From contig JABUEY010000004.1 of NCBI GenBank assembly GCA_013314815.1, forward strand, positions 1-64,000: 64,000 nucleotides of DNA, read 5' to 3'. A model generated the notes under the pieces. The model had not been told where the DNA came from. It ran no database searches and was given only the letters and a program-made list of their open reading frames with translations. Positions 595 to 18,941 of the stretch are shown one piece after another. Numbering within the stretch: position 1 is the stretch's first letter; every line of letters begins with the position of its first letter. The DNA comes from Syntrophobacteraceae bacterium (GTDB lineage Bacteria > Desulfobacterota > Syntrophobacteria > Syntrophobacterales > Syntrophobacteraceae). Position numbers and translations under genes: made by a program.

Positions 595-2031
595 TCAGCA
601 GGAATCGCGCATTACGGAGGTTTCGAGTTTGAGCCGGTATCTTTCGATCTTGGAGAGAAGGGTCGGGCGGGAGAGTCCGAGCAGTCGAGCGGCCTGGGTT
701 CGATTCCCCCCGGTCAGGTTGAGGGCTTCAGTGATGATGAGCGCTGCGAACCTGTCCGTCAGGGAATCGAAAGCATTTCCGGAATCGGCGGAAGCGAGCG
801 CTTTTCGAATCCACTGCTGCAGTGCCTCGTCGGGCATGTCGGCTTCCTGGTATTTGGCGGGAGCATCGATCCCGATGGCCTTGGAAAAATCCTCGGGACC
901 GATAGGGCATCCGCGGCTGAAAATGAGGGCCTTCTGGACGACGTTGGACAGTTCACGCACGTTGCCCGGCCAGGAATAGCCGCTCAAAAGGAGCCTGGCT
1001 TTTTCGGTCATGCCCGGATTGTCCGTTTCCATCTCGGCTGCAAACCGCGCCAGGAAGTATTCGGCAAGAAGCGGGATGTCTTCCTCCCTTTCGCGCAGAG
1101 GCGGAAGCCGAATCGTCACCACCTTCAGGCGATAATACAGGTCTTCACGGAAACGGCCGTCGGCAAGAGCCGATTCCAGGTCCCTGTTGGTTGCGGCGAT
1201 GATGCGCACGTCCACCGGGATGGGTTCCCTCCCTCCCAGGCGCTCGATGCTCTTTTCCTGGAGAAGCCTCAGGATCTTGGACTGGATCGCGAACGGCATG
1301 TCTCCGATTTCATCAAGGAAAACCGTCCCCCCGTGAGCCTGTTCGACTCTGCCCACTCGACGGCTTGCGGCTCCGGTAAACGCACCCTTCTCGAAGCCGA
1401 ACAGCTCGCTCTCGAGGAGCGTCTCGGGAATCGCCACACAGTTGATCACAAGAAAAGGTTTGTTGGCCCGCTGGCTGTGCTGGTAAATGGCCCTGGCCAC
1501 GAGTTCCTTGCCGGTTCCGGATTCGCCTCGAATGAGCACAGTGGCATCTGTGGACGCCACTCGGCCGATCGCCTTGTAGATTTCCTGCATCGCCTTGCTG
1601 CGCCCGATAATCGCCTCCATGGATGCCGTATCCGGCACAGCATCCAGCGCAATGCGCGATCGCATAAACCGCCCGGCCTCGATGGCCTGTTTGATCAACA
1701 CCAGGATTTCCGGGATGTTGAACGGCTTCAACACGTAATCGAAGGCGCCCATCTTTGTGGCCTCGATGGCGGTTTCCGTGGTTCCGAAAGCCGTCATGAT
1801 AATGACGGGCAGCCTCGGCTCGAATTCCCGTATGGCCCTGAACGTATCCAGGCCGCTCATTCCCGGGAGACGCACGTCCATGATGACGAGGTCCAGTTCC
1901 TGAGAACGGACGATCGCCAGGCCGGCTTCACCGCTGGGCGCCGTTCTCACCGTGTGGTCCTCCTGGCTCAACAGCTTCTCGAAGCTTTGCCGAAGCTGAA
2001 GGTCGTCGTCCACAATCAGGATCGTACCCAA
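595..2031 (-). CDS. NtrC-family sigma-54-dependent response regulator
   Basis: This is a three-part activator: receiver (residues about 1-120; acidic DDD and phospho-acceptor Asp in IMDVRLPG, about D52), AAA+ domain with Walker A GESGTGKE and sigma-54-contacting loop GAFTGA, and a C-terminal Fis-type helix-turn-helix (GGNRTQAARLLGLSRPTL). Phosphorylation would license ATP-driven opening of RpoN promoters. No ATG lies near the start. A TTG at 2031 sits 7 nt behind a GGAGG; a GTG at 2049 is the alternative. The frame overlaps the end of the upstream kinase gene, so the two form a translationally coupled kinase-regulator pair. The likely target is the perfect -24/-12 promoter at 336-350. Confidence 0.93.
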   Translation of the reverse strand: MGTILIVDDDLQLRQSFEKLLSQEDHTVRTAPSGEAGLAIVRSQELDLVIMDVRLPGMSGLDTFRAIREFEPRLPVIIMTAFGTTETAIEATKMGAFDYVLKPFNIPEILVLIKQAIEAGRFMRSRIALDAVPDTASMEAIIGRSKAMQEIYKAIGRVASTDATVLIRGESGTGKELVARAIYQHSQRANKPFLVINCVAIPETLLESELFGFEKGAFTGAASRRVGRVEQAHGGTVFLDEIGDMPFAIQSKILRLLQEKSIERLGGREPIPVDVRIIAATNRDLESALADGRFREDLYYRLKVVTIRLPPLREREEDIPLLAEYFLARFAAEMETDNPGMTEKARLLLSGYSWPGNVRELSNVVQKALIFSRGCPIGPEDFSKAIGIDAPAKYQEADMPDEALQQWIRKALASADSGNAFDSLTDRFAALIITEALNLTGGNRTQAARLLGLSRPTLLSKIERYRLKLETSVMRDSC

Positions 2032-3509
2032 ACTCTCTCCTCCCTGCACGGCAGCGTGATGGTGAAGGTGGCTCCTCTACCGGGTCGAGACCGGAGATTC
2101 AACACCCCCTTGTGTTCCTCGATGATCCTGGCAGCTATGCTCAGCCCCAGGCCGGTGCCTTCCTCCTTCGTGCTGAAGAACGGCTGGAATACCTTCTCTC
2201 TCAGCACCTCTGGAATTCCCGGCCCGTTGTCACTCAACCGGATCACCGCCACGTGCCCCAGCGGCTCCGCCACGCCTTCTTCCTCGCGGATAAGGATCTT
2301 GCCGCCATCCCCGGTGGCCTCACACGCATTCACGATGAGATTGACAAAAACCTCCTTCAATTGCTCAGGATCCGCCTCGATCACCGGCAGCCGCCTCTGT
2401 CGTATAAGCTCCAGCGTAACACCGTAGGATTCCACCCGGTGGCGAAGAAGCTGAATGGCCATGTCCACGACATCCGAAGGGCTTATGGTCTGCATCTTCA
2501 GCTTGGGAGGACGGGAGAACTCGAGGAAATTCTGAACAATTGTGTCAATGTGCCGAATCTCGTCGGATATGACGTCGAAATCTTCTTTTTGAGTCGACGA
2601 CAGCTTCAGGGTACGTTCCATTGTAAAGAGCCGCATTTTCACTGACGTGAGAGGATTCCGGATGCTGTGGGCCACCCCCGCGGCCAGTTTGCCGACCATC
2701 GCGAGCTTCTCCGTCTGAAGAAGATGCTCCCGGCTTTGACGCAGCTGGATCTGAGCCACATCCGCGTCTTCGATCAGGTTGTGGACCCTGCGGCTGAGTT
2801 CGCCCACCTCGTCGGCTTCCTGAATCGAATCCCCGTTCGTCTTGACCTGCTCGGAAAGCTCGAGGATGGGTCGAAACAACCTGGTCACCAGAAGGTAGCC
2901 CAAGGCAGACAGGATCAGCAACGACAAGGGAAGGAAGAGCAGCACAAGCACAACGAAGGTTTGAGCCCTGCCCAGGAACGTTTGCCGCACCGTCGAGATG
3001 TCCCGGTAGTGCGTCTGCTTGTACTGTTCGCAAAGATCGCGAATGGCAAAGAAAGGGCTGCGAATCTCCCGCAGGAGCTGCAGTCCGGCTTCGCGGCTCC
3101 CTGATTTGTACAGGGTGATCACCTGGTCCCGGGCATGGCTGTAGCGAATGTACTTGGACTCGATTTCATAGAGTATCTCCAACTGTTCATCTGAGTGGGA
3201 TGCTTCCCTGGCCTTTTTCAGCCAGCGTTCGAACGCATACCTCTGTTGATCGAGCTGAGTCAGCCATTCTGCATCGCCGTCCACGAAATAATAGGTCAAG
3301 AGGCCTCTCTGCATGGCCAGGGAGCTCTCGAGCTCCTGGGCGACGTTGAGAGCACCCACATTCATGTCCAAAACCCCGGCGAAAGAGTCTGCCATTGTCC
3401 GGACAAGTTGCACGCTCCATATCCCCCCTGCGGCCAGGATGATCACAAGGCACCAGATCAGCAGGGAAAATCTTGTTTTGAGGCCGATCTTCTTCAACAT
3501 GTTTACCAT
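2016..3509 (-). CDS. Membrane sensor histidine kinase with HAMP domain
   Basis: The order is: first membrane helix (about residues 13-30), a periplasmic helical sensor of roughly 150 residues, a second helix (FVVLVLLFLPLSLLILSAL), HAMP, HisKA with the phospho-acceptor in VAHSIRNPL (about H281), and a HATPase domain with N box VNACEAT, DNGPGIP and TGLGLSIA. The usual HEIxNPL has become HSIRNPL, keeping the His and the NPL. The periplasmic part looks like a four-helix-bundle sensor and not a Cache domain. I take the ATG at 3509; another in-frame ATG is at 3500, and a longer frame to 3578 lacks a ribosome site. The gene overlaps the sigma-54 activator downstream, its probable partner. Confidence 0.92.
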   Translation of the reverse strand: MVNMLKKIGLKTRFSLLIWCLVIILAAGGIWSVQLVRTMADSFAGVLDMNVGALNVAQELESSLAMQRGLLTYYFVDGDAEWLTQLDQQRYAFERWLKKAREASHSDEQLEILYEIESKYIRYSHARDQVITLYKSGSREAGLQLLREIRSPFFAIRDLCEQYKQTHYRDISTVRQTFLGRAQTFVVLVLLFLPLSLLILSALGYLLVTRLFRPILELSEQVKTNGDSIQEADEVGELSRRVHNLIEDADVAQIQLRQSREHLLQTEKLAMVGKLAAGVAHSIRNPLTSVKMRLFTMERTLKLSSTQKEDFDVISDEIRHIDTIVQNFLEFSRPPKLKMQTISPSDVVDMAIQLLRHRVESYGVTLELIRQRRLPVIEADPEQLKEVFVNLIVNACEATGDGGKILIREEEGVAEPLGHVAVIRLSDNGPGIPEVLREKVFQPFFSTKEEGTGLGLSIAARIIEEHKGVLNLRSRPGRGATFTITLPCREERVWVRS

Positions 3510-3906
3510 GCCTGGACACCACCTGCCCGGGGCCGATTGGATCCCCGTTGAAATAGAGCGCGCCGTACACCCGGACACGCTAAAGCCCTACCATGGTCGT
3601 TGCCAAACACGATCCTGCCGGGAAAGTCCGGTTCATCGGGCAAAACGAGTACCTTCAATGCCTTCCACGCAAAGGATCGATGGCATCACAACCTCATTCG
3701 GCGTCACAACTGTCCGGGTACTCATTTGCCGGAAGACGGGGTTGCCCGACCGCTTACGAAGAACCGAAAGCCCGCGGCTCGGATCAAATCAGTATTCCAA
3801 ATGAAGCAAATTTTGTATAGTAATATCATAACGAATCAAGACAGTATTTCCATGAAGAGTCCACATCATACTCCTACGGGGATCGAGGAAGGAAACCAGG
3901 ACACGC
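3510..3906. other. Intergenic region between divergent genes
   Basis: It separates the minus-strand kinase from the plus-strand PEP-synthase-like gene. It holds a short copy of the dispersed inverted-end repeat (3630-3737) and an AT-rich stretch (3800-3850, with TATAGTAATATCATAA) that could contain a sigma-70 -10 element for the gene at 3907. I see no sigma-54 element. Confidence 0.45.
3630..3737. repeat. Short copy of dispersed inverted-end intergenic repeat
   Basis: The left end is GGTTCATCGGGCAAAAC and the right end ATTTGCCGGAAGAC, an imperfect inverted pair. Inside are AAGGATCGATGGCATC and ACTGTCCGGGTA, both shared with the longer copy at 58270-58689. It is about 108 bp and has no coding potential. 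Confidence 0.6.
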
Positions 3907-6519
3907 ATGCTAAGGTGGCTGAATTATTTCAGGTTCTGGAGGACGGGGAAACCGAAAGCTCCGGCACACGTCCTGACCGATCTTTTCCGGATGAAGCATG
4001 AACGCTTCAAGGAACTCCTCGATTCCAACGCCGAACTTTCCAAGATTATCGCGGATATGGAAGAAAAACTTCAGGGGCATGATATCTTCGGCATGTCCTA
4101 TGTACGCTCACAGTCGGCGCGAGCCGTCTTTCATACTCTTCGCATGATCAAGAGCCTCGACGAACTTTCGGGACGCAAGTATGGAAATCTCTACGGGGTA
4201 CTCGAAACTATAAATGAAACCATCAAATCGAATCTGGCCGAGCGCAAGCAGAACCCGCCCGAAGAATGGATACTTCCCTATTCCCGCATCACCAAGGAGA
4301 TGGTTGACTGGGTCGGCGGAAAGAGCGCCAACCTGGGGGAAGTGCTGAACGCCGTTGGTTTGCCCATCCCCGAGGGCTTTGCCATCACCACCCTGGCCTA
4401 CGATTATTTTATGAATTCCAACGATCTCGTCGACGAAATCAACAAGATCAAGATGGAAGTAGACCCCGACGATCCCCAGACGGTCAACTTTGTGAGCGAG
4501 GAAATCCAGCGCCGCATTATTTCTGCTCCCGTTCCACGGGACCTGGGGGACACCATACTGGCTGCCTACGACGAAATGATCGAAAGAATCCGACGCAGGG
4601 GAACGCAGGGTCTGAGCACCGAGATATCCATGAGGAGCAGCGCCATAGGGGAAGACAGCGAGCTCTCGTACGCCGGCCAGTACCTGTCCCTGCTGAATGT
4701 GCCCCGCGAGCGGATCGTCCACACCTACGGTTATATCCTCGCCAGTCTGTTCACGCCTCGAGCCATATCCTACCGGTTGAACAAGGGGATCCGCGATGAA
4801 GACATCGCCATGAGTGTGGCCTGTCTGCAGATGGTGAAGTCGGAAGCAAGCGGAATTGCCTATTCCCGTCATCCGTTCAACCTGTTGGACGACAACGTCA
4901 TCATCAGCGCGGTATGGGGCCTGGGACCCTACGCAGTGGACGGCGTCATCACGCCCGACAGCTACAAGGTTGCCAAGGACCCGGAGCGGACTATCCTCGA
5001 GAAACAGGTATCCCACAAACCCGTGCAACTGGTGAGCAATCCCGACGGGGGACTCATGGAGGTGCCGGTTCAGCGCGAGAAACAGGATGAATCCTGCCTT
5101 CCCGACGACCAGATCAGGCTTCTGGCCGATTATGCCATCCGGCTCGAAGAACACTACGGGCGTGCCCAGGACATGGAATGGGCTCGCGACCCGAATGGAC
5201 AACTCATGGTTCTGCAGACCCGCCCCCTGCACACTGGCAGCGAATCAGACCAGGGCCGTGCGCCGGCGATCCCTCTGCTCACCCGGTATCCCCTGCTCCT
5301 GGAAGGCGGATCCATCGCGTTTCCTGGTGTGGGCTTCGGAAAGGCCTACCATGTAAGAACCGAAGACGACCTGCTCGCTTTCCCGGAAGGGGGCATCCTT
5401 GTAGCCAAACATGCCTCCCCCAAGTATGTCGTGGTCATGCGGAAGGCTCAGGCCATCCTTACGGACTTCGGAAGTGCAACCGGGCACATGGCCTCCGTTG
5501 CCCGGGAATTCGGAGTGCCCACCATTCTGGATACCAGGAAGGCCACAGAATCGGTTCCCCAGGGAGAAACGGTGACGGTCGACGCGTATTCCGGAAGGGT
5601 TTACCAGGGGGAGGTCAGTGAACTGCTCAGTCTCAAGGCCGTTCGGGAAGCCTGTATGAAAGAGACTCCCGTCTATGAAGCACTCCAGCGCATCACCGCC
5701 TCCATCGTTCCACTCAATCTCATCGATCCCAAATCTCCCCGGTTTGCCGCCGAGTACTGCGAAACGCTTCATGACATCATGCGGTTGGTGCACGAATTCT
5801 CCTACCATGAAATGTTCCAGATCAGCGACCTGGTGTCCGATGACGGCGGCTGCGCAGTGAAACTCGATGCCCCCATCCCACTCGACCTGTATATCATCGA
5901 TCTGGGAGGAGGACTCGCCACCGAGGTCGCGGGCTGCGGGAAAGTGAAGGTGGAGGAGGTCGTTTCCATCCCCTTTTCCGCCGTCCTCAGGGGAATGCTC
6001 CACGAGGACCTGCGCTATCACAGGCCTCGGCCTATTGAACTCAAGGGCTTCTTCTCCGTCATGACCGAGCAGATGTTCACTCCCGCCTATTCGGGAGCTG
6101 AAAGGTTCGGAGACCGCAGCTACGCCATCATCTCGGACAAGTACCTCAATTTCAGCTCCAGGGTGGGCTATCACTACAGTGTCCTGGACTCCTACTGCGG
6201 CCGGACCGTGAACAAGAACTACATTACCTTCTCTTTCAAAGGCGGGGCCGCCGACGACGTCCGGCGCAACAGGAGAGCTCGAGCCATAGCGCAGGTGCTT
6301 GAATCCCTCGACTTCGTGGTTGAAGTTGTGGCGGACAGGGTCGACGGCAAGTTCCAGAAGTTCGAACAGCCGATCATTGAAGAGAAGCTGGACATGATCG
6401 GAAGGCTGCTCCAGTTTACCCGGCAGCTGGACATGCTCATGAACAGCGAAACGACCGTCGCAGCCATCGCCAAAGCGTTTCTGAGCGGCAACTACCACCT
6501 GGAGGAAGAGGTGTTTTGA
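3907..6519 (+). CDS. PEP-synthase-like protein with ATP-grasp and phospho-His domains and a novel C-terminus (paralogue A)
   Basis: The 870 residues begin with a helical extension (1-115). An ATP-grasp domain like the N-terminal half of PEP synthase/pyruvate phosphate dikinase follows, with MRSSAIGEDSELSYAGQ near residue 241 and QDMEWARDPNGQLMVLQTRP near 421. A swivelling phosphohistidine domain has its catalytic His in SATGHMASVAREFGVP (H527). The PEP-binding barrel expected next is absent. About 290 residues of unfamiliar sequence replace it, with PLDLYIIDLGGGL, YAIISDKYLNFSSRVGYH and a basic RRNRRARAIA. The protein could phosphorylate its swivel His from ATP, but the acceptor is unknown. 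The paralogue at 11810-14482 shares the whole layout. Start at the ATG 3907 with AGGA 5 nt upstream; an ATG at 3991 is possible. Confidence 0.88.
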   Translation: MLRWLNYFRFWRTGKPKAPAHVLTDLFRMKHERFKELLDSNAELSKIIADMEEKLQGHDIFGMSYVRSQSARAVFHTLRMIKSLDELSGRKYGNLYGVLETINETIKSNLAERKQNPPEEWILPYSRITKEMVDWVGGKSANLGEVLNAVGLPIPEGFAITTLAYDYFMNSNDLVDEINKIKMEVDPDDPQTVNFVSEEIQRRIISAPVPRDLGDTILAAYDEMIERIRRRGTQGLSTEISMRSSAIGEDSELSYAGQYLSLLNVPRERIVHTYGYILASLFTPRAISYRLNKGIRDEDIAMSVACLQMVKSEASGIAYSRHPFNLLDDNVIISAVWGLGPYAVDGVITPDSYKVAKDPERTILEKQVSHKPVQLVSNPDGGLMEVPVQREKQDESCLPDDQIRLLADYAIRLEEHYGRAQDMEWARDPNGQLMVLQTRPLHTGSESDQGRAPAIPLLTRYPLLLEGGSIAFPGVGFGKAYHVRTEDDLLAFPEGGILVAKHASPKYVVVMRKAQAILTDFGSATGHMASVAREFGVPTILDTRKATESVPQGETVTVDAYSGRVYQGEVSELLSLKAVREACMKETPVYEALQRITASIVPLNLIDPKSPRFAAEYCETLHDIMRLVHEFSYHEMFQISDLVSDDGGCAVKLDAPIPLDLYIIDLGGGLATEVAGCGKVKVEEVVSIPFSAVLRGMLHEDLRYHRPRPIELKGFFSVMTEQMFTPAYSGAERFGDRSYAIISDKYLNFSSRVGYHYSVLDSYCGRTVNKNYITFSFKGGAADDVRRNRRARAIAQVLESLDFVVEVVADRVDGKFQKFEQPIIEEKLDMIGRLLQFTRQLDMLMNSETTVAAIAKAFLSGNYHLEEEVF

Positions 6520-6748
6520 AGGCCGGCCAGACCTTTCCTGTGGAACCTTCAACATGGCGCAGGCGAACAGAATTTGTGAAATATAGCACATTTACTGTGG
6601 GTTGACCGAGTCTTTCTGCTCATTTCCTGCTGAAACATTTTGTTTACACTCGACGTTCCCGGGAATTGTAATTCCGGTAACAATCCTGTATCATAGTTAA
6701 TATATTCGATAAATTTCATTTTAAGAGGGTGTGTTCCGATCCGTTTTT

Positions 6749-6778
6749 GCATCCCTGGAAGCAGACTTCCAGGGATGC
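6749..6778. repeat. Perfect 12-bp inverted repeat
   Basis: GCATCCCTGGAA, six bases, TTCCAGGGATGC. It lies about 230 bp after the PEP-synthase-like gene. Neither strand has a T-run on its 3' side (the TTTTT is on the 5' side in plus sense), so it is not a classical terminator. It could stabilise a transcript end or bind a dimeric protein. Confidence 0.6.
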
Positions 6779-7671
6779 ACTCATGATGCACTCATTTCAC
6801 AACTCGATCCGCCATCAAATTTCAAGGAAAAATCTTTGCCCGGTCAAATAAAAAGCATTGACATTGCTGGAATAAATTCCTACGATTGCGCCCAAAAAGC
6901 AGATGGTGTCGGCGAGGAGGATGGGCAGGTGGAGTCTGAGGTCCGCCCGATGAATCGTTCTTTGAGATGTCGATGTGTATACTAAATCGGACCAGAGTAT
7001 GCGCGATGCGCGGACAGTTGTTGCGGTCGGGCCGACTCTGAAACGGGCCAAGTGGATAAAGACCTCCAACTCCCAGTCGACTGATGGACAGTCGTGAACA
7101 GCTCCTGATCGAATTCCGCGTATACCAGGCCTCCAGGGTCCTGAGTGTTCTTTGACAACCAGGATAGGACCTGCGACGACGATAGTTGCGATCGCAGCCA
7201 GGCATGTTTTGCTCAGCATGCGGATGCAAAGGTTCAGGCAGCGGACTTTCCGGGAAAGGCCAGCGGAACGACAGCTTTTTGACCTGTTTTGACGACTTCG
7301 TCCATCGCCTGTGGTGAGGCGAAAGGACGCGTGAAGCGCTTCCAGTTCCGGCAAAAGGGATCACTGTGCGGATGCCTGCCCGTCAGGCCGTCATCATATA
7401 AAGTAAACAGGCAGTAATAGATCACAGGCTTTCTTCATTCGTAATACCCCTGCAGTGCCCCTGGTTCCCGTCGTAAAGAGTATGACTCCGAATCCTTCAA
7501 GAATCCTGCTTTGGCCTTCTCGCACCCACATCTCACGGCGATGGATGCGCGGCAGCCGGTACCCGGCGCGGCTTGCGCCCATTCAACGACTTCTCCGCCA
7601 GGGATCCGGCTTTTCCATGCCTTGACGACCGCTGCCTCCCCCCCTCCCCTGGCCCCTTGGGGATATACAGA

Positions 7672-7698
7672 GGTTCTCTCCCGCAGCGGGAGAGAACC
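7672..7698. repeat. Extragenic palindrome
   Basis: GGTTCTCTCCC, GCAGC, GGGAGAGAACC: a perfect 11-bp stem in non-coding sequence. It resembles REP-type palindromes scattered in proteobacterial genomes. No transcription signal is attached. Confidence 0.55.
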
Positions 7699-8077
7699 GT
7701 CGGGGGAAGGCGGTCGGTTTGTCGGGCACAGAACCTTTTCAACACCTAGCCGACGGACAAGCAGCCGTGCTCGATCCGGTGTCCTTTTTCCCCGCATCGA
7801 CGTCCCTCCACGGGACGCAGTGTGTATTATTTCACACGCAAAACACGCCTTTGCCCCACCGCACATATTCGTTTGAACCTTGAAAGATTTTGATCTGAAA
7901 ACAATATCTGGAACCTAAACAGCAGAACCCTGAGTTCTTCACGCATGTGATTTTGTGCGCATTCCCGTGACAATGTTGTCAACAAACAGTTTCACTTCAG
8001 GTTCCGAAAGCGAGCCTCATTGTGAGATCGGGTGCGAAATCACTACAAGATTTGTTTCCCCGGCACTTAAGGAAATC

Positions 8078-8092
8078 TGGCACAAATGTTGC
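8078..8092 (+). promoter_or_regulatory. Perfect sigma-54 (-24/-12) promoter of the TauE operon
   Basis: TGGCAC, five bases (AAATG), TTGC: an exact RpoN element. Transcription would start near 8103 and leave a leader of about 350 nt before the first gene at 8455. It is the plus-strand counterpart of the element at 336-350. Confidence 0.82.
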
Positions 8093-8454
8093 TGCTTCTA
8101 TAGTGCCAAATGCGCAGACATCCTGACTGTTTTCTGAGAAACACAGGGCTGGCGGTGAAATACGGCGGCGATCCGGGGGACGGGCAAGGAACGGATCACG
8201 GGCAAGTGTCTCCTTTCCGTTGACACTGCTCGGCTGCCCCCTCGACCCGTCCCGGCGGTTCCGCCGGGTGATTCTGATTGGAAGGAGGTGATGGAAACGA
8301 AAGGAAGCGAAGTGGAGGAGGTGTATTGCCCCGATGCGACAATCCGACACGAACGGGAGGTGATTCGAAGCGAGCTCGATTCAGGACCATGTAGATTGTT
8401 CTTCAAGTGAATTGTCGCAATAGCTTCACGAGACCATGAAGGGAGGTTATTTGC
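8093..8454 (+). other. Long leader of the sigma-54-driven TauE operon
   Basis: About 350 nt lie between the sigma-54 start and the first gene. I see no open frame with a ribosome site and no riboswitch class I recognise. The stretch around 8228-8270 (CGACCCGTCCCGGCGG followed by TTCCGCCGGG) can fold into a GC-rich hairpin. A good Shine-Dalgarno (GGGAGG) precedes the ATG at 8455. Confidence 0.4.
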
Positions 8455-9009
8455 ATGTCTGCAGAACAAAGAAAAAGCGGTGCGTTTAAGTTTACATTCT
8501 GGACGTTTTTGGCATTACTCTTAATATATTATGCCTGGCATTCCTACAGTTCGGGACAAATGATCAACTGGTATTACTGGGAAGCGGCCGCTGACGGTTA
8601 CGCCGTCAACGCCAACACCTTCAAGGAAGCAACCAAGGAGAAGCCCATGATCCTTGAAATCGGCCCTCACGCCGAGATCACCGGGCTTCAGGCGGTGCCC
8701 GTAAAGAAGGGGGAGAGGCTGCCCATAGGTTGCAACGGGATTATCAGCAAGAAGGAACTCGAAGAAGGCAAGCGAGTCAAGCTCGAAGACGACAGGATCG
8801 TGGTGATGGTTCCCATGCAGGTCAAGGAAGCGAAGGGGTTCAAGTACAAGGACACGTACAAGCACAAGGGCATCAAGACCAATCCGTGGTCGGGGGCGTG
8901 GAATGTCGCCTGGGTGCTTGCGCTGGGTGTGTGCCTCGGATACAGCGCCGAGGGATTCACCGACCTTTTCGGCCTCAAACTGAAGAAGATCGAACATTAC
9001 GGTCATTAG
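8455..9009 (+). CDS. Unknown two-helix membrane protein, first gene of the TauE operon
   Basis: The 184 residues have one membrane helix near the N-terminus (about 12-31), a soluble central part of roughly 110 residues rich in Lys and Glu, and a second helix near 145-165 (WNVAWVLALGVCLGYS). With the start inside, the middle would lie in the periplasm. I do not recognise the family. GGGAGG stands 8 nt before the ATG. It is the first gene after a perfect sigma-54 promoter and directly precedes the TauE/SafE permease, so it probably belongs to that transport unit as an accessory or sensing subunit. That role is inferred from position only. Confidence 0.85.
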   Translation: MSAEQRKSGAFKFTFWTFLALLLIYYAWHSYSSGQMINWYYWEAAADGYAVNANTFKEATKEKPMILEIGPHAEITGLQAVPVKKGERLPIGCNGIISKKELEEGKRVKLEDDRIVVMVPMQVKEAKGFKYKDTYKHKGIKTNPWSGAWNVAWVLALGVCLGYSAEGFTDLFGLKLKKIEHYGH

Positions 9010-9045
9010 GATCCATCAGCTGAAATTCCAGTAGAGGAGTTGATC

Positions 9046-10113
9046 ATGTTTGATTTTGCAATAGCGGGAGTACAAAGCCCTTTTATGCTGTTAGTGCTTA
9101 CCGGGTTTACCGTGGGTATTGTCGGCGGGTTTATCGGTGTCGGCGGCGGCTACATGGTGACCCCTGCTCTCATCGTGTTCGGTTTTCCGGGCTACATGGC
9201 TTCAGGCATCGATATGACGCATATCGCAGGTAAATCGGTCATTGCCACCGTTCGGCACAGGCAGATGGGAAACATCGACTGGGTCCTGGGCCTGGCCATG
9301 GTCGGAGGCACCATGCTCGGCGTGGAACTTGGCGTAAGGCTTCTGAACTGGGCCAAGAAGCTCGGCATCGCCGGCATCCTGCTTCTTACCTGCTCCGTCG
9401 TGGTCATGCTGTGCCTGTTCATCTACACACAAATCGAGACCCAGAAGGCTCACAAGAAGATCGAAAAGGACGCCGAAGCAGGCATCACTGCGGGGCGTGA
9501 AGTCATGGTCAGCGGCATCCCGAGGTTTTTCCAGAGCATTCCCCTGTATCCCATCGTCCGCTGCCGTACGGCCCGCCTGGTCATATCCATGTGGGTGATC
9601 GTGCTTGTCGGCATCTGCACCGGGACACTCGCGGGATTCCTGGGAGTCGGCGGAGGATTTGTGCGTGTGCCGGCGCTCGTTTACGTCATCGGCGCCACAA
9701 CCCACATCGCCGTGGGCACCGACCTCCTGGAGATCGCCGTTTCCGGTGGTTACGGAGCCATGAGACACACCCAGATGGGCAACGTGGACATGATCGCGGT
9801 CATGTTCATGATCGTGGGCGCCATGGTGGGCGCACAGTTCGGCAGCATCGCTACATCCTTTGTGCGCGGCCCCGCCATCCGGTACATACTCAGTTATTCC
9901 CTTATCCTCGCCACCGTGGGCGCCTGCCTGCGGCTCATCTACATGCTCACCGGCCAGAAGTACGAGGTGCTCTCCTTCTTCGCGGTGGTCTTCACCCTGG
10001 GCGAGATGTTCTTCCTGTGCTTCTTTATCGTCAGTCTTGTGGTATTCGCCGTGCGGTACCGGCACGGCAAGTCGGTCCCTGCGTGGATCCCCGCGCTGGT
10101 AGTCAAGGATTAG
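9046..10113 (+). CDS. TauE/SafE-family anion permease
   Basis: This 355-residue multi-spanning protein shows the two-fold repeat of the family: VGIVGGFIGVGGGYMVTPAL in the first half and TLAGFLGVGGGFVRVPAL in the second, each followed by a THIA(G/V)-type stretch (DMTHIAGKS; TTHIAVGTD). Members export small anions such as sulfite, sulfoacetate or other organosulfur compounds; the substrate here is not readable. The ATG at 9046 has GAGGAG 6 nt upstream; a TTG at 9040 is less likely. It sits in a sigma-54-driven operon between an unknown membrane protein and two very small ones. It is closely similar to the permease at 19590-20669. Confidence 0.93.
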   Translation: MFDFAIAGVQSPFMLLVLTGFTVGIVGGFIGVGGGYMVTPALIVFGFPGYMASGIDMTHIAGKSVIATVRHRQMGNIDWVLGLAMVGGTMLGVELGVRLLNWAKKLGIAGILLLTCSVVVMLCLFIYTQIETQKAHKKIEKDAEAGITAGREVMVSGIPRFFQSIPLYPIVRCRTARLVISMWVIVLVGICTGTLAGFLGVGGGFVRVPALVYVIGATTHIAVGTDLLEIAVSGGYGAMRHTQMGNVDMIAVMFMIVGAMVGAQFGSIATSFVRGPAIRYILSYSLILATVGACLRLIYMLTGQKYEVLSFFAVVFTLGEMFFLCFFIVSLVVFAVRYRHGKSVPAWIPALVVKD

Positions 10114-10148
10114 CCTGTTTACTCTTGTGGTTAAAGGAGGTATGAAAA

Positions 10149-10256
10149 ATGAAGTGGCTTTGGGACTCCATGCTTGGCTACTGGCTCCTGCTGCTTTCCA
10201 TCTCTCTTGGCATTGCGGCGGCAATCTACATGATATGGCTCCGTGGGCTCATATAA
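10149..10256 (+). CDS. 35-residue single-helix membrane peptide
   Basis: ATG at 10149 to TAA at 10254-10256, beginning MKWLWDSMLGYWLLLLSISL and ending in a short basic tail (IWLRGLI). AAAGGAGG precedes it, and another AAAGGAGG begins right at its stop codon to serve the next gene. One membrane helix fills most of the peptide. It lies 35 nt behind the permease, so it is probably a small subunit or regulator of it. An ATG at 10142 opens a different, implausible frame. Confidence 0.75.
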   Translation: MKWLWDSMLGYWLLLLSISLGIAAAIYMIWLRGLI

Positions 10257-10268
10257 AGGAGGAAGACC

Positions 10269-10460
10269 ATGCAAATTCTTGCCAACCTCATTCTATATGG
10301 TTTCATGCTTTTCCTGGTATATGAATCCATATTCGTCGAACACGATCCGTTTTTTGCCTTCGTGGTCCTGTTCGTGATCGGAGTGGCTGTCATTACCACG
10401 CTGTTGCCGGGTCTTCATGCTTCGAGGACCTCGCCTGGCGAATACCCTTACGATGACTGA
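10269..10460 (+). CDS. 63-residue two-helix membrane protein
   Basis: This small hydrophobic protein has helices at about 3-18 and 28-47 and a short polar tail rich in Pro and Tyr (SPGEYPYDD). AAAGGAGG stands 7 nt before the ATG. Its stop overlaps the next start (TGATG), so it is coupled to the 221-residue gene downstream. I do not recognise the family. As a tiny membrane protein behind a TauE permease it may be an accessory subunit. Confidence 0.82.
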   Translation: MQILANLILYGFMLFLVYESIFVEHDPFFAFVVLFVIGVAVITTLLPGLHASRTSPGEYPYDD

Positions 10461-11125
10461 TGACCGGTGAGATCATGACGACGGACCTGGGTGCGCTGCG
10501 CAAGGAAATTATCAATCTGTACGATAAGCGCAAGATAGGTGACCTGACGGAAAGAAAATTCCAGTCCCGGCTTGCGGACAAGACGGTGGAGCTGTATCGG
10601 ACGATCGTGATGGGCAGAATGGCTGAAGGAGAGACGATCCAGATGGAACACCATACGATTCTCTCCCATCTCAAGCTGACCCAGTCCATCCTGAGGGAAC
10701 CCGAGCAGTTCGCCACCAGTCTATTCGCTACGGACCGGCGCCTGTTTCGCGTACGTGCGACATTGATTCTGAGTATTCCACCAACGGGCGACCACAGGGA
10801 CAAGACCGTGGTGGACGAACTTTCCTACAAGCGCATCGCGTCTCTCAAGGTCCGCCGTCAGGTCAGGTGGGGTGAAGCGTATGTCGGCGCCGCCTTTGCC
10901 GGCGGGGCCGCCATCTTCTCCCCCTGGCTCGACATGACCGGCCCCGTGTTGATTGGAATCGGATCTCTGGGCATCATCCACGCCTTCCTTCTTCCGACCC
11001 GCTGGGTCGAAGTGGTGCCCGAGAATCCGATTCCCGACATGGATCCGATGAACATCCATGTGTTGCGAAAGAAGAGTGCCCGGGCCCTGGTGCAGTTCCT
11101 CCAGCAGAAATTGAGCCGATCATGA
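10460..11125 (+). CDS. Unknown membrane-associated protein of the TauE operon
   Basis: The 221 residues start with a helical, charged domain (1-75, with a LRKEIINLYDKRK stretch). A beta-rich part with an ATDRRLFRVRATL pattern follows (about 90-105), recalling bacterial PH-like or short PilZ-adjacent folds, and then two membrane helices (about 138-152 and 155-172). I cannot name the family. It is coupled by TGATG to the gene before and by ATGA to the receiver gene after it. A protein partner of that receiver is a reasonable guess. Confidence 0.82.
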   Translation: MTGEIMTTDLGALRKEIINLYDKRKIGDLTERKFQSRLADKTVELYRTIVMGRMAEGETIQMEHHTILSHLKLTQSILREPEQFATSLFATDRRLFRVRATLILSIPPTGDHRDKTVVDELSYKRIASLKVRRQVRWGEAYVGAAFAGGAAIFSPWLDMTGPVLIGIGSLGIIHAFLLPTRWVEVVPENPIPDMDPMNIHVLRKKSARALVQFLQQKLSRS

Positions 11126-11520
11126 AAGGAATAAAGGTCCTTCTCGTAGACGACGAAGTCGACTTTACGACAAGTATGCGCAAGGTCCTGGCTCGACGCG
11201 GATTTGAAGTGGACGTTGCCTCCGACGGCCTCTCCGCCCTCCCCATGATTGCCCAGACACATTTTGACGTGGTGGTTCTCGACATCAAAATGCCCGGCAT
11301 GGACGGGATCACCGTGCTTTCGGAAATCAAGCGGCTCACTCCATCCACCCAGGTGATCATGCTCACCGGGCACTTTTCCTTCAGCGACGAGGTGGACGCA
11401 TCGCAAACCGGAGCTTTTGCGTACCTGCTGAAACCCATTCCCATCATGAAACTTGTCGATATCATACTCGCCGCCGCGGTTCACGGCAGAACGGTCGCGC
11501 TGAAAGGCGCAGGCCCCTGA
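11122..11520 (+). CDS. Stand-alone receiver-domain response regulator
   Basis: A single CheY-like receiver of 132 residues with acidic pocket VDDE (D10, D11), phospho-acceptor D54 in VVLDIKMPG, the Thr of MLTGH and the Lys of LLKP. There is no output domain. Its ATG overlaps the preceding stop (ATGA). Receivers of this type act by protein contact, so it may signal to the membrane proteins of its own operon or to the PEP-synthase-like protein encoded next. Confidence 0.92.
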   Translation: MKGIKVLLVDDEVDFTTSMRKVLARRGFEVDVASDGLSALPMIAQTHFDVVVLDIKMPGMDGITVLSEIKRLTPSTQVIMLTGHFSFSDEVDASQTGAFAYLLKPIPIMKLVDIILAAAVHGRTVALKGAGP

Positions 11521-11809
11521 TGTATTGAAGACGGAACCGCTCGCACCGGGAAACCGTGTCGTCATGGATATCGGTCCGCCCGAATCCGGTATCGCCATCC
11601 CGATCCGGCCTCCCGGTTCCTCCCATGTCGATCATATAAGCGCCCGTCCCGGCACAGGACAAGTACACCTTCCGCCCTCATACCCATTGCGGTGCGCCGC
11701 AACCGCATTCATCCACTGGAATTTTACGGGACCTTCGTGTAAGATTCGATGAGAAGTTCGGCCTGAAAACCCGCTGTAACGATTCAACAACTTTCAGAGC
11801 GAAGCAAAC

Positions 11810-14482
11810 ATGGATTCCGTCAATTCGACTTCTTCCGAGGGAACCGAAGCCCGCCCGTGGTATCGAAAGGCCATGTCCAGGACGTGGAATGGTTTCAAGT
11901 ACTTCCTGGAACTCATAGGGATTCTGCAGGGACAGGCTGTGGACCAGGCGGCCCAGGTAGCCAGGTTGAGGCTTTATCACACGGAGTTTCGCAAGCTTCT
12001 TTCGTCGAACAACAGCTTCCTGGAAAACCTGGGAGATCTGGAGCAGAAGCTATACAGCAGCGAACTGGTGGACCGGGCGTTCGTCAAGCGCAAGGTCGTG
12101 AGGATCCTGACCGATATTCATGCTATGGTGGAAAGCATCAATGTTATTTCGGGCGATCGCTATACTGCGCTGCGCGAATCCTTCGACCGGATAGCGGAAC
12201 CCCTCGGCACACTGATGGAGGAATCCACGGAATCCGCCGGCAGCCAACGGGTTCTTGATCTTTCCGAAGTGAGCGCGGCACATGCCGAACTGGCCGGGGG
12301 CAAGATGGCGAACCTGAGCGAGGTCGCCAACGTGCTCGGCCTTCCGACTCCGGACGGCATGGTGATCACAACGGAAGGATTCCGGGAGCTTGTCGAAAAG
12401 GGAGGCATACGATCCTGGATCCAGGACAAGCATCTCGAAATCGAATCCCCGCACGACATAGACCGGATCAGTGAGGAGCTGCGAGACCGCATTTTGGATC
12501 TAGAAGTCCCCTCCGAACTCCAGGAAGAGATTCTCGCCGGCTACGACCGCCTGGCGGAGCGCGCCGGAAAACCTGTGCCCGTTGCCGTGCGATCCAGTGC
12601 CGTGGGCGAAGATTCCGATTTTTCCTTTGCGGGCCAGTTCCTATCCGTTTTAAACGTGCGTAGAGAGGATCTCGCCGGTGCGTACTTGCGAGTCGCGGCA
12701 AGCCTTTATTCCACAGAGGCCATGTATTACAGGTTCCTGCACGCAATACCCGGAGAATCTGCTCAGATGGCTGTAGGATGCATAGAAATGGTCGATGCGG
12801 CAGCGAGCGGAGTGGTCTTTTCCAGGGATCCGAATCGGCCCGATTCCGGAAAAGTGCTGATCCATGCCATCAAGGGGCTCGGCGTCATGCTTGTGGACGG
12901 CCGTACCTCCCCGGAGGTGATACAGGTTTCAAGAGACCCGCTCGGGGCCGAGGTGGATCGGAGCCCTTCTTCTCAGAAAAGCCGAATCGTCCTGGCGGGA
13001 GGATCCGGTGTCGAGGAGAAGGATTTGCAGCCGGGGGAAGCCGGGCAGCCCTGCATCTCCGACGACCAGGCGGTGCAGCTCGCCGGATGGGCTCTGCAAC
13101 TCGAGGCTCATTTTGGGAGCACACAGGATGTGGAATGGGCGCTCGATCATGAAGGCAGGCTTATTGTTCTGCAGTCGAGGCCTCTGGCCTTGTCCGCGCA
13201 TTCCACCCGCACGGAAGAACCTGTTACAGGCTTTCCGCTTCTCGTGCGGGGGGGCGAGGTCGGATGCCCGGGCATCGGGATCGGCCCGGCAAAGCATATG
13301 TCCGAAGACGACGACATGGAAACCTTCCCGGACGGTGCCGTGCTGGTGGCGAGAAGGTCATCACCCAGGTTCGTCCGGCTGATGTCGAGAGCCACGGCCA
13401 TCGTGACCGATGCAGGAAGCACCACCGGCCACATGGCCTCGCTTGCCCGCGAATTGAGGGTCCCCACCCTGCTCAACACGAGGTCGGCGGTCCAGTCGAT
13501 CCCCGATGGAACCCTCATCACCGTGGACGCGAGCAGTGGATTCGTCTACGAAGGAGAGGTTCCCGCCCTGGCCGAGAAACAGGCGGCCGCCGCGGAGGAA
13601 GGAGACTTTTCGGAAAGAAGGAAACTGACTCCAGGGTACCGTCTCCTGGCAAAGGTGGTGGAAAACATCGCGCCTCTCCATCTCACCGATCCTGCAGCGG
13701 CGAATTTTACCGCCCAGGGGTGCCTGACCCTGCACGACATGGCACGCTATATCCATGAAAAGTCCTACAAGGAAATGTTCATGCTGGGAAACAACGTCGG
13801 AGACCTTCGCGCATCCAGCTATTACCTCGATGTGTTCCTCCCCATCGATCTGTATATCATCGATCTCGGCGGGGGACTTGAAGGGAGCCCGAAGCAGAAA
13901 AAAGTAAAGCGATCCCAGGTGACCTCTGTGCCCCTCAAGGCGGTCCTGGATGGAATGCTTCACAAGAAGATCCAGCGTTTCGGTGCTCGACCCATGGACC
14001 TCGGGGGGCTTTTCTCCATTATGATGCGGCATGCCATGACCAGCCCCGAAGAAGATGAATCCTTCAGGGCTCCCTGCTATGCCATCATCTCGGACAAGTA
14101 CCTGAACTACACCGCAAGAGTGGGTTATCACTTCAGCGTACTCGATACCTACTGCGGGGAGACACCCAACAAGAACTACATCAGCATGGTCTTCCAGGGG
14201 GGGGCGGCGGATTTCGTGCGAAGGAGCCGCAGGGCCAGGGCTATCGCAAGCATTCTCAAGGAGCACGGCTTTACCGTGAAGGTCCACAACGATATCGTCA
14301 ATGCGCGTCTCAGCAAGGCTCCCCTGCAGGAAAGCGTGGCTCACCTGCAGATGCTGGGTTCCCTGTTTCAGTTCTTCCGTCAGATGGATGCGGCCATGAC
14401 CAGCGAAAACGCCGTCTCGTTGTACGCGGAAGCATTTCTGGATGGTGATTACGCGCTGGAGAGATTCAAGAGCGGTAACTAA
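11810..14482 (+). CDS. PEP-synthase-like protein with ATP-grasp and phospho-His domains and a novel C-terminus (paralogue B)
   Basis: The 890 residues follow the plan of the protein at 3907-6519: a helical N-terminal extension (about 1-150), an ATP-grasp domain with VRSSAVGEDSDFSFAGQ near residue 265 and QDVEWALDHEGRLIVLQSRP near 440, and a swivel domain with its phospho-acceptor in STTGHMASLARELRVP (H541). The same unfamiliar C-terminal domain (about 595-890) carries PIDLYIIDLGGGL, YAIISDKYLNYTARVGYH and RRSRRARAIA. The PEP-binding barrel is again missing. The start has only a weak ribosome site (GAGCGAAG). A gap of 289 nt separates it from the receiver gene; it may have its own promoter or belong to the TauE transcript. 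Confidence 0.88.
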   Translation: MDSVNSTSSEGTEARPWYRKAMSRTWNGFKYFLELIGILQGQAVDQAAQVARLRLYHTEFRKLLSSNNSFLENLGDLEQKLYSSELVDRAFVKRKVVRILTDIHAMVESINVISGDRYTALRESFDRIAEPLGTLMEESTESAGSQRVLDLSEVSAAHAELAGGKMANLSEVANVLGLPTPDGMVITTEGFRELVEKGGIRSWIQDKHLEIESPHDIDRISEELRDRILDLEVPSELQEEILAGYDRLAERAGKPVPVAVRSSAVGEDSDFSFAGQFLSVLNVRREDLAGAYLRVAASLYSTEAMYYRFLHAIPGESAQMAVGCIEMVDAAASGVVFSRDPNRPDSGKVLIHAIKGLGVMLVDGRTSPEVIQVSRDPLGAEVDRSPSSQKSRIVLAGGSGVEEKDLQPGEAGQPCISDDQAVQLAGWALQLEAHFGSTQDVEWALDHEGRLIVLQSRPLALSAHSTRTEEPVTGFPLLVRGGEVGCPGIGIGPAKHMSEDDDMETFPDGAVLVARRSSPRFVRLMSRATAIVTDAGSTTGHMASLARELRVPTLLNTRSAVQSIPDGTLITVDASSGFVYEGEVPALAEKQAAAAEEGDFSERRKLTPGYRLLAKVVENIAPLHLTDPAAANFTAQGCLTLHDMARYIHEKSYKEMFMLGNNVGDLRASSYYLDVFLPIDLYIIDLGGGLEGSPKQKKVKRSQVTSVPLKAVLDGMLHKKIQRFGARPMDLGGLFSIMMRHAMTSPEEDESFRAPCYAIISDKYLNYTARVGYHFSVLDTYCGETPNKNYISMVFQGGAADFVRRSRRARAIASILKEHGFTVKVHNDIVNARLSKAPLQESVAHLQMLGSLFQFFRQMDAAMTSENAVSLYAEAFLDGDYALERFKSGN

Positions 14483-15393: not shown

Positions 15394-15804
15394 CTACCTC
15401 TGCATGTTCTGCAGCCTGATCTTCTTTCTTTGATAAGCCTCCGCGATCTTTTCCTGCAGTTCTTCTATCCGAATGGGTTTCATGGCGTAATCGAAAGCTC
15501 CGTGGTGCATCCCCTCGATACCCGTCTCAACGGAACCGTGTCCGGTCAGGATGATCACTTCGACCATCGGTTTCTTTCTCTTGATGATCTTCAGAGCCTC
15601 GATGCCCCCCATGCCGGGCATCTTCAGATCGAGGACAACCACATCGAATTCGCTTTCCTCGACGGCACTCACAGCAGCCTCACCGCTGTCGGCCGTGGAG
15701 ACTCGAAACCCCCTCCTGACGAGCAGTTTGGACATATTCCTGGTAAATGCCTCCTCGTCGTCCACCAGCAGGATCCTTATCCCGGGTTCATCCAGCGACA
15801 TCAT
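15394..15804 (-). CDS. Stand-alone receiver-domain response regulator, coupled to a kinase gene
   Basis: A 136-residue receiver with VDDEE (D15, D16), phospho-acceptor D59 in VVLDLKMPG, ILTGHGS and YAMKP. There is no output domain. Its start lies inside the 3' end of the kinase gene (17-nt overlap), so it is the probable direct phosphorylation partner of that kinase. Confidence 0.92.
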   Translation of the reverse strand: MMSLDEPGIRILLVDDEEAFTRNMSKLLVRRGFRVSTADSGEAAVSAVEESEFDVVVLDLKMPGMGGIEALKIIKRKKPMVEVIILTGHGSVETGIEGMHHGAFDYAMKPIRIEELQEKIAEAYQRKKIRLQNMQR

Positions 15805-17560
15805 ATGGGCTGTCCTCGAAGTCCTTTGCCGTTCTGAAAGGAAGAAAAATCGTGAACTCAGTGCCCTTCCCCATTTCGCTCCGAACCGTAATGTTGCCTC
15901 CCAGGGATTTCACGATGGTGTAGGAAATGGAAAGCCCCAGGCCAGTCCCCTTTCCAACCGGCTTCGTGGTAAAGAACGGGTCGAATATTCTCTTGAGGTT
16001 CTCCTGCGAAATGCCCGACCCCGTATCGGAAATATTGATCTCTATGCCCTGCTTTCTGCTGTTCAGGCGGCTGTTGATCCGTATGGTCCCGTAGGGCTTC
16101 CCTTCGTGGGCATCTATGGAATTGGATATGAAGTTGATGAGTACCTGTTCGAGTTGAAAAGGATCCGAAAGGAGACGAGGCAGGTCGTTTTCCAGGTCCA
16201 CAATGAACTGAATCCCGCTGGTCTGCGCCCTTTTTTCCAGCAGTTCGATCACTTCTTCGCAGCACTTGTTGATATCCACCATCTCGATCTTCGACTTGGA
16301 TCGACGCGAGAAGCGCAGCAGGTTCTGAGTGATGTGACTGCACCGCTGCACCTGTGCTTCGATCTGGCTCAGGGACTCGAAGAGCTGACCCTTGAAATCC
16401 CCGTCAAGCGATGTGGCCTCCTCCCCCAGGTCCCGGATGACCTGGTTTTCGGTCAGGATGACGGACAGCGGGTTGTTGATCTCGTGGGCAACGCCGGCGG
16501 CAAGTTCTCCTATGGATGCCAGTTTGCTCGCCTGGAGCAGTTGCATGCTGAGCCGTTCCTCCTCCTCGTCCCGCTTCTGGATCACCTTGATCATGTGACG
16601 CGTGGTGAGGATGGCTACAACAAGGATGGCCAGGATACTCACGTGCAGGAAAATGAGAATGGCGTGATTGGCATGGTTGACGGCCCTGAACGCTTCATCG
16701 TAGTCCTGTTTGACTCCAAGCAGCCAGCGGGGCTTCTTGAGCCAGGCGTAAGCGATGATCTGTTTCGGCAGAGGCCGGTCGAGGTCGTCTTTTCCCCCTT
16801 CGAGAATATGGATTCCGCTTTCCTCCGTGAATACATCCATCCGGAATGGGGCGCTGCCCATGATCTTGCCGCTGTATCGAGGTGCGGTCTGAAAGACTCC
16901 CTCCTTGTTGAGAAGGTAGACCTCCCCCGTCTCGCCGATCTTCACGTCCTCTACGAGTGAGCGCATGTAATCGGTGTAAACCGTTGCCCTCAGGATCCAT
17001 TTCTGATTTTCGTCGGATCGCAGAACGGCAATGATAAAGTGGGGAACGCTGCGATATCCCATGAACATGTCGCTGATGTAGACGCCTCTTTCCATCACCC
17101 TCTTGAACCAGAAGGTTTCCGAATAATCCTTGTCCATCAAGTCGTAAGGCCCCACATAGGACACGTGTCTACCCCGGTCGTCGATGACTCCGATGTCCGT
17201 AAAAAAGACTTCTTCGCGGTTCAACGTATTGAATACGCGATTCAGATTGGATGTGTCTCGAAGGTGTTCGAGAGAATGGGTGAATGCGGTCAACTGGAGA
17301 TCGGCGGTGCGTTCCTTGAGAAACAGTTCCACGATCTTGCGATGATATTCGGTGAGGTTCTGAAAGTAATCGACCATCCTCGCCGTCGCGAACTCGGAAT
17401 AATAGGTATAGATGCCCCAGCCCACCAGGATGAGAGGAAAAACCGAACAGATCAGCGTAAGAAGAATAAATCTCCTGTAAAGCTCGGCATATGTTTCTTT
17501 CTTCGTGGCACCGGCGGACTTCCGATAGGACCCGCTCTTGATATCCCCATTCGAATTCAT
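15788..17560 (-). CDS. Sensor histidine kinase with periplasmic Cache-type domain
   Basis: The 590 residues comprise a cytoplasmic start, membrane helix 1 (about 30-54), a large periplasmic double-Cache-like sensor (about 60-300), membrane helix 2 (FLHVSILAILVVAILTT), HisKA with [10 protein letters not shown] (H359) and HATPase with NFISNSIDA, DTGSGI and GTGLGLSI. The sensor has a DIGVIDDRGRHVSYVGPY stretch also found, with small changes, in the kinase at 28177-29850, so the two probably bind related ligands. The ATG at 17560 is the only reasonable start. It is coupled to the receiver at 15394-15804. Confidence 0.94.
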   Translation of the reverse strand: MNSNGDIKSGSYRKSAGATKKETYAELYRRFILLTLICSVFPLILVGWGIYTYYSEFATARMVDYFQNLTEYHRKIVELFLKERTADLQLTAFTHSLEHLRDTSNLNRVFNTLNREEVFFTDIGVIDDRGRHVSYVGPYDLMDKDYSETFWFKRVMERGVYISDMFMGYRSVPHFIIAVLRSDENQKWILRATVYTDYMRSLVEDVKIGETGEVYLLNKEGVFQTAPRYSGKIMGSAPFRMDVFTEESGIHILEGGKDDLDRPLPKQIIAYAWLKKPRWLLGVKQDYDEAFRAVNHANHAILIFLHVSILAILVVAILTTRHMIKVIQKRDEEEERLSMQLLQASKLASIGELAAGVAHEINNPLSVILTENQVIRDLGEEATSLDGDFKGQLFESLSQIEAQVQRCSHITQNLLRFSRRSKSKIEMVDINKCCEEVIELLEKRAQTSGIQFIVDLENDLPRLLSDPFQLEQVLINFISNSIDAHEGKPYGTIRINSRLNSRKQGIEINISDTGSGISQENLKRIFDPFFTTKPVGKGTGLGLSISYTIVKSLGGNITVRSEMGKGTEFTIFLPFRTAKDFEDSPYDVAG

Positions 17561-18504: not shown

Positions 18505-18710
18505 GTCTCGGATGGGTGTTCCTCCGATCGGTATCTTCTGACCAGAAACCTGGCCAGAAGAAGCGTTGGAATCAGCATTCCGAAGAAGTACTTGAAAAAC
18601 ACCAGAGTGAATTCCTCGGGGTGCCGGTTTGCCACGTAAATGCTCACGAACAGCTCGGCCAGCACCAGGATATCCACGAAGGCTATAACCACCTTTTGTC
18701 GAGAATTCAT
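18501..18710 (-). CDS. 69-residue two-helix membrane protein
   Basis: A small hydrophobic protein (helices about 7-25 and 34-54) with a basic, charged tail (RFLVRRYRSEEHPS). It overlaps the next gene by the ATGA arrangement, so the two proteins are made together. The ribosome site is weak. I do not recognise the family. Confidence 0.75.
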   Translation of the reverse strand: MNSRQKVVIAFVDILVLAELFVSIYVANRHPEEFTLVFFKYFFGMLIPTLLLARFLVRRYRSEEHPSET

Positions 18711-18850
18711 GAGTTGCCCGTTCGCCTTCCCATGATAGATTCGGCGGCATGCAAAGTGATCGGGGAATGGCGCCTGGTCGCAGAATCACCCGTGAGTAGG
18801 GGAGGCTTTCGAATGCCTCCTCGCACCTGCGCCTCCGGATTGATTAGGGA

Positions 18851-18906: not shown

Positions 18907-18941
18907 TCTCACGCTGTTTGAATTCAGCTTAGCCGATTTGC

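Follow-up and report, generated by a model that had tools for sequence, protein, structure and literature searches.

A PEP synthase-like protein family with a new C-terminal domain, and its possible role in the control of TauE permeases in Desulfobacterota

Related dikinases and the Desulfovibrio nitrate cluster

PEP synthase and pyruvate phosphate dikinase (PPDK) possess an ATP-grasp domain and a swivelling phospho-His domain. Both domains are also present in the protein family described here, for which we use the name PPSL, whereas the PEP/pyruvate barrel is replaced in PPSL by an unrelated domain. Rifampin phosphotransferase (Rph) and the prodigiosin ligases PigC/RedH belong to the same superfamily and have an exchanged acceptor domain as well, but they differ from PPSL in domain order, in the acceptor domain itself and in their small-molecule substrates. 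In PTS Enzyme I and the nitrogen PTS, a phospho-His enzyme that uses PEP and a barrel controls transport. PPSL has an ATP-grasp domain and no barrel, and the combination of a PEP-utilising barrel with an HPr-binding domain was not found in it. VadK (Rv1127c) is described, in the available part of a preprint, as a PPDK fragment of about 50 kDa that lacks the barrel, has a regulatory role and autophosphorylates on its His; that part of the text reports no replacement domain, TauE or receiver (PMC12636432). PPSL is similarly PPDK-derived and devoid of the pyruvate barrel, but it is not truncated after the swivel, where a conserved domain of about 280 residues follows.

The "nitrate cluster" DVU0251-DVU0245 / Dde_0597-0605 has been studied genetically in Desulfovibrio (PMC4001038, available in part and cited from that part throughout). 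Insertions in the genes encoding the TauE permease (DVU0251), a lone receiver (DVU0247) and the PPDK-like protein DVU0246 gave nitrate resistance in D. vulgaris and D. alaskensis, and 100 mM nitrate made no difference to the growth of isolated DVU0246, DVU0247, DVU0250 and DVU0251 mutants (PMC4001038). The authors proposed a leaky thiosulfate transporter (PMC4001038), and a later paper repeated the putative thiosulfate-transporter reading of the cluster (PMC9723548). The nitrate phenotype, as far as it is published in that part, suggests uptake rather than export by the permease. In D. vulgaris, the mutants of the PPDK-like protein (fitness +2.18) and of the dual-specificity phosphatase (DSP, fitness -6.04) had opposite nitrate phenotypes (PMC4001038), as for a kinase and a phosphatase. 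The DSP mutant was nitrate-sensitive in D. vulgaris but resistant in G20, and the G20 result does not fit this pattern (PMC4001038).

Several Desulfovibrionaceae loci showed, in full or in part, the order TauE, hypothetical protein, PhnD-like binding protein, histidine kinase, receiver, PPSL and DSP, which is the order of DVU0251-DVU0245. Their receiver (119 aa) has the length of DVU0247 (360 bp) and their phosphatase (about 370 aa) is like DVU0245, while DVU0246 as annotated (2235 bp) is some 80-100 residues shorter than their PPSLs. Gene order, annotation and gene lengths indicate with high, but not complete, confidence that DVU0246 is a PPSL.

The genome studied here has a similar arrangement on contig C148, where PhnD-like, histidine kinase and receiver genes accompany a PPSL fused to a DSP (L061, 1480-5238); this contig bears no TauE gene. 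In the fusion protein the HCX5R motif is intact and the tail is rich in cysteine; the neighbourhood also encodes a YeeE-type Sulf_transp protein. A YeeE (PF04143) thiosulfate transporter as PPSL partner, hinted at by this contig, was rejected because this association with PPSL was not repeated in 16 complete genomes. In contrast to the nitrate cluster, the modules analysed below lack the binding protein and the phosphatase and contain other TauE subfamilies; of the gene order of the cluster, TauE, receiver and PPSL alone are represented in the window. The sequence-only reading had suggested an undescribed system. This seems to hold for the PPSL family, for its domain and for the system across the phylum; the available part of the nitrate-cluster paper describes neither the family nor its C-terminal domain and breadth. 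It does not hold for the Desulfovibrio cluster of the same gene order, already studied genetically (PMC4001038).

Domain anatomy and breadth of the PPSL family

The window, i.e. the whole 64,000-nt stretch of DNA that was analysed, is contig C221 of a draft genome, its nearest relatives with a name being bins of Syntrophobacteraceae and Desulfobacteraceae, and encodes two PPSLs on the + strand. PPSL1 (P0001, 3907-6519, 870 aa) has a probably helical N-terminus, an ATP-grasp (PPDK_N) domain (4306-5262), a phospho-His swivel (5380-5595) with the catalytic H527 (codon 5485-5487), and the new C-terminal domain (5665-6504, residues 587-866). In its paralogue PPSL2 (P0002, 11810-14482, 890 aa), the ATP-grasp domain lies at 12287-13210, the swivel at 13325-13540 with H541 (codon 13430-13432), and the C-terminal domain at 13628-14473 (residues 607-888). 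The N-termini of both proteins (about 120-150 residues) are poorly conserved and probably helical. Both proteins matched PPDK_N (PF01326; E=1.3e-91 for PPSL1, 1.4e-77 for PPSL2) and the PEP-utiliser swivel (PF00391; E=9.3e-21 for PPSL1, 4.7e-18 for PPSL2). Both ORFs are open and correctly placed, and the ATP-grasp and swivel domains that the sequence-only reading had assigned to them retain their key residues. Of 143 full-length PPSLs, 141 keep the swivel His, 138 the ATP-site Lys and 142 the ATP-site Arg; K139, R243, E249, E424, Q437 and R439 of the PPSL1 ATP-grasp domain are kept in 138-142 of them. The HisKA/HATPase domains of two-component histidine kinases were not found in PPSL1 or PPSL2.

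The N-terminal half of PPSL matches PEP synthase models, and the protein could be taken for an ordinary or degraded PEP synthase or PPDK. The anatomy refutes this reading, to which we give practically no weight. The scores against the NCBIfam PEP synthase equivalog were 369.4 and 304.5 bits, below the cut-off of 598 bits, and the PTS Enzyme I model gave a weak match confined to the swivel region. The PEP/pyruvate barrel (PF02896) had no match in PPSL1 or PPSL2. When a 143-sequence profile of the C-terminal domain was compared by hhalign with three barrel-bearing proteins of the same genome, the probabilities were 0.04, 1.9 and 0.15%, whereas a direct comparison of two of these barrel proteins, without any profile, gave 99.7%. 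A PEP barrel hidden in the C-terminus was therefore ruled out, and the earlier claim that no barrel follows the swivel was confirmed. Moreover, two other barrel proteins of PPDK-like size are encoded elsewhere in the genome, and the C-terminal domain is strongly conserved in the 143 sequences.

As had also been proposed, this domain is common to both proteins; it covers about 280 residues, with 47% identity between PPSL1 and PPSL2. An alignment with a PEP barrel or a characterised domain, against which the earlier reading had set its claim of a new domain, was found neither in Pfam, NCBIfam and the PDB nor by hhalign: residues 587-866 of PPSL1 and 607-888 of PPSL2 had no Pfam or NCBIfam match, and a 29-sequence profile found nothing convincing in the PDB (best E=0.13). 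Two AlphaFold runs of the domain with six sequences produced poor models (pLDDT 48 and 57), which suggest a mixed alpha/beta order rather than a barrel and no confident fold; Foldseek with these models found nothing with E below 0.07. PADLOC contained no model matching PPSLs. A mobile-element origin was rejected, no relatives being found on viral contigs or plasmids. In PPSL1 numbering, D623, G696, H756, G779, G780 and R790 are invariant in the 143 PPSLs, and H622, H629, E630 and D842 are present in at least 141. The near-invariant positions of PPSL1 comprise these residues, G696 apart, together with C618, R626, N771 and D810. Judged from the sequences, the conserved H, D, E, R, C and N residues look catalytic, like the set of an enzyme.

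The PPSL domain is encoded by 110 of the 296 sampled genomes, all from the phylum Desulfobacterota, often in several copies; the genome of the window contains five full-length paralogues. Its recurrence in these 110 genomes with near-invariant residues puts the domain beyond chance. Family and domain are thus real and widespread, seem not to have been described before, and represent a variant within the dikinase superfamily.

Several variants were met. The tandem PPSLs of L066 (8741-11269), L068 (8227-10704) and L073 (7005-9419) have a degenerate ATP-grasp domain that has lost the ATP-site Lys, and keep the swivel His; they adjoin active copies and may be charged by the neighbour as relay partners. 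In the PPSL of L086 (5889-8636), a possible pseudo-enzyme, neither the ATP-site Lys nor the swivel His remains. Two others, in L069 (720-3911) and L077 (5368-8499), bear an extra C-terminal domain that is weakly like lectin / 3-keto-disaccharide hydrolase folds. Finally, nine of the 143 PPSLs form a clade that includes the protein on contig C116 of the same genome (L059, 3330-5957) and its relatives in L062, L064, L074, L075, L078, L099, L113 and L133. TauE and receiver genes are absent near members of this clade, and no conserved neighbour of any kind was found there. A potassium-channel partner, hinted at by C116, was thereby left without support.

TauE operons, receivers and sigma-54 sites around PPSL

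The window contains two interleaved modules, one made of PPSL1, a regulator/kinase pair (595-3578) and the TauE2 operon (17716-21024), the other of PPSL2 and the TauE1 operon (8455-11520). An exact sigma-54 -24/-12 site, TGGCACAAATGTTGCT (8078-8093, +), lies upstream of the TauE1 operon. This operon, on the + strand, encodes a 184-aa protein (8455-9009) that is hydrophobic at both ends, weakly MoeA_N-like and presumed to be a TauE1 accessory; the TauE1 permease (9040-10113; PF01925, E=4e-38) with a long central cytoplasmic loop; a 63-aa small protein (10269-10460), membrane-like by sequence and kept in the relative locus L041; a 221-aa protein (10460-11125) without family match, kept in L041 and L044; and a lone receiver (11122-11520) in which D10, D11, D54, T82 and K104 are intact. 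The sigma-54-driven permease operon and its lone receiver had both been recognised in the sequence-only reading, from which the TauE2 operon was absent. The latter, on the - strand, is preceded by the exact site TGGCATACAAATTGCT (21302-21317, -) and begins with a 99-aa small protein (20725-21024), followed by the TauE2 permease (19590-20669), which has 81-86% identity in several relatives and recurs near PPSL1 orthologues, a DUF4881 lipoprotein-like protein (18942-19562; PF16222, E=5e-74) and a protein without known family that is conserved with TauE2 (17716-18789, start uncertain). Exact sites of this kind were expected 0.05 times in the window, and they precede both TauE operons. A third one (335-350, -) lies near the contig end, and its target gene is probably off the contig.

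The gene pair beside PPSL1 encodes an NtrC-type sigma-54 response regulator (595-2049, -), kept in L039 and L050, and a histidine kinase (2016-3578, -) divergent from PPSL1 and kept in L039, L040, L047 and L050. Orthologues of PPSL2 adjoin TauE1-type permeases. A second lone receiver (15394-15804, -) adjoins a dCache histidine kinase (15788-17560, -). Further signalling genes at 21878-28093 encode receivers (21878-22372, 26291-26719 and 27683-28093, all -), kinases (22407-24683 and 26722-27738, both -) and an NtrC-type regulator (24859-26316, +).

In 16 complete genomes, picked for carrying PPSL, a TauE gene was found within 10 kb of 31 of the 48 PPSLs; 2.0 were expected, and none of 5000 random placements gave more than 9. 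This linkage, about 15 times the expectation, extends across genomes of many families, and shared ancestry partly accounts for it. The sequence-only reading would have been contradicted by an absence of TauE linkage in other genomes; the count showed the opposite. The receiver count that it had proposed placed a lone receiver directly beside 50 of the 143 PPSLs, on the same strand, i.e. about a third. Receivers of all kinds number 23-145 in each of these genomes, by estimate roughly 2% of the genes. All of 45 PPSL-adjacent receivers, that of the window included, retain the catalytic Asp and Lys residues, and 43 retain the Thr.

At least four recurrent PPSL-TauE arrangements, differing in gene order, were distinguished (genes were predicted with a simple ORF caller, which leaves start sites and small genes approximate). 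One consists of a kinase, NtrC, a Usp-like protein, a TauE of about 310 aa, Alph_Pro_TM (PF09608), PPSL, receiver and a further PPSL; another of a kinase, receivers, a TauE of about 430 aa, an unassigned protein of about 235 aa and PPSL. The window represents a type with a TauE of about 350 aa and small proteins or DUF4881, in which PPSL adjoins a sigma-54 activator or kinase. The last comprises TauE, a hypothetical protein, a PhnD-like binding protein, kinase, receiver, PPSL and the DSP phosphatase. All 24 PPSL-linked TauEs have at least 35 residues beyond the Pfam model, versus 34 of 76 unlinked ones with at least 30. The extra sequence includes the central loop between the two halves, which bears subfamily-specific conserved motifs and is a possible docking or acceptor site. 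Over 2.31 Mb of PPSL loci, 26 exact sigma-54 sites were found versus 3 in a shuffled copy, and TauE operons lie downstream of 14 of the 26.

Possible functions of PPSL

Among the 296 Desulfobacterota genomes, PPSL was present in 103 of 119 with aprA (APS reductase; AprA match over the curated cut-off) and in 7 of 177 without it, so that 16 genomes had aprA alone and 170 had neither. Both genes are clade-structured, and p-values for their association therefore exaggerate the independence of the genomes. By family, in a hand count, PPSL was present in 38 of 43 aprA-positive families and in 0 of 55 others. PPSL is found in most sampled sulfate-reducing Desulfobacterota.

Taken together, the observed anatomy, conservation, linkage, intact receivers, promoters and co-occurrence with aprA are the basis on which we propose, with a probability of about one half, that PPSL is an ATP-dependent phospho-histidine regulator of TauE sulfur-oxyanion permeases; from them we infer autophosphorylation, the acceptor, the order of steps, the direction of signalling and the substrate. 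The earlier suggestion of a phosphorelay or an effect on the exporter is plausible. The ATP-grasp domain would charge the swivel His from ATP, as PEP synthase does; going by the domain anatomy, PPSL should autophosphorylate like VadK. From the swivel, the phosphoryl group would then move to an acceptor that is bound by the new C-terminal domain, in the place of the pyruvate barrel; a permease-module protein (the TauE loop or an accessory subunit) is the most likely acceptor. A DSP partner, adjacent or fused, points to a hydroxyl group as the final acceptor, in preference to Asp or His. The activity of PPSL could be set by the lone receiver together with a Cache/PAS histidine kinase. As the net result, the TauE permease, its genes switched on by sigma-54, would be allowed to transport. 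The output is most likely post-translational, since a single phenotype depends on permease, receiver and PPSL alike, and no transcription factor is listed for the nitrate cluster in the available part of the publication. Against the permease-regulator reading count the 66 of 143 PPSLs without TauE within 8 kb, the C116 clade, the differing phenotypes of the DSP mutants in D. vulgaris and G20, the part of the linkage that is due to shared ancestry, and the poor models of the C-terminal domain.

PPSL could instead be a metabolic dikinase whose new domain binds and phosphorylates a small molecule, either a signal or a compound taken up by the cell, TauE moving the compound or its product while receiver and kinase tune the enzyme. 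In Rph and the prodigiosin ligases, an exchanged acceptor domain serves new small substrates. The conserved residues at the C-terminus of PPSL look catalytic, and one relative is fused to a DSP (L061) and two (L069, L077) to a weakly carbohydrate-binding-like domain. We consider this rather unlikely: PPSL accompanies at least four TauE subfamilies with different accessory proteins, which a shared regulator fits better than one substrate does, and loss of PPSL equals loss of the permease in effect, according to the accessible text (PMC4001038). The active receivers directly adjacent to PPSLs, and the description of VadK as a PPDK-derived histidine kinase, would agree with PPSL as an unusual phosphodonor that transfers its phosphoryl group from His to the Asp of the lone receiver, which then acts on the permease. 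This is doubtful, because the classical histidine kinases found within 8 kb of 93 of the 143 PPSLs could supply the receivers, the large conserved extra domain would be superfluous, and a dual-specificity phosphatase is an odd partner for phospho-Asp.

It is still less probable that the linkage reflects co-inherited signalling islands of sulfate reducers, the job of PPSL being unrelated, e.g. energy or pyrophosphate sensing. The window is dense in signalling genes and the C116 clade has no linkage, but an island would hardly account for about 15 times the expected linkage in many families, recurring in different gene orders, or for the common phenotype of the cluster mutants (PMC4001038, available part). 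As for the regulator of TauE permeases, a bolder and improbable version would make PPSL a core unrecognised control system of sulfate respiration, in which the phospho-His reports the flux of sulfate activation and the C-terminal domain, gated by the receiver, phosphorylates and opens TauE sulfur-oxyanion permeases. Such reporting could occur since the dikinase half-reaction (ATP to AMP and phosphate or pyrophosphate) would draw on the pools that sulfate activation turns over.

The marine sulfur cycle and the souring of oil reservoirs are driven by sulfate reducers, whose control of sulfur-oxyanion uptake is poorly known. PPSL connects lone receivers and a permease family with a widespread unnamed domain in a system that can be tested, offers an explanation for the nitrate resistance of "nitrate cluster" mutants, and brings a new acceptor domain to the dikinase superfamily.

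Elsewhere in the window, genes at 35122-41916 encode a multihaem cytochrome c, a molybdopterin oxidoreductase and a 4Fe-4S dicluster protein, followed by unassigned proteins; this set is similar to Qrc, a menaquinone reductase complex known from sulfate reducers. A MoeA fused with a PBP_like periplasmic-binding-type domain is encoded at 30905-32896 (-), and a 740-aa protein with a CofD (2-phospho-L-lactate transferase) domain, here in a bacterium, at 46639-48861.
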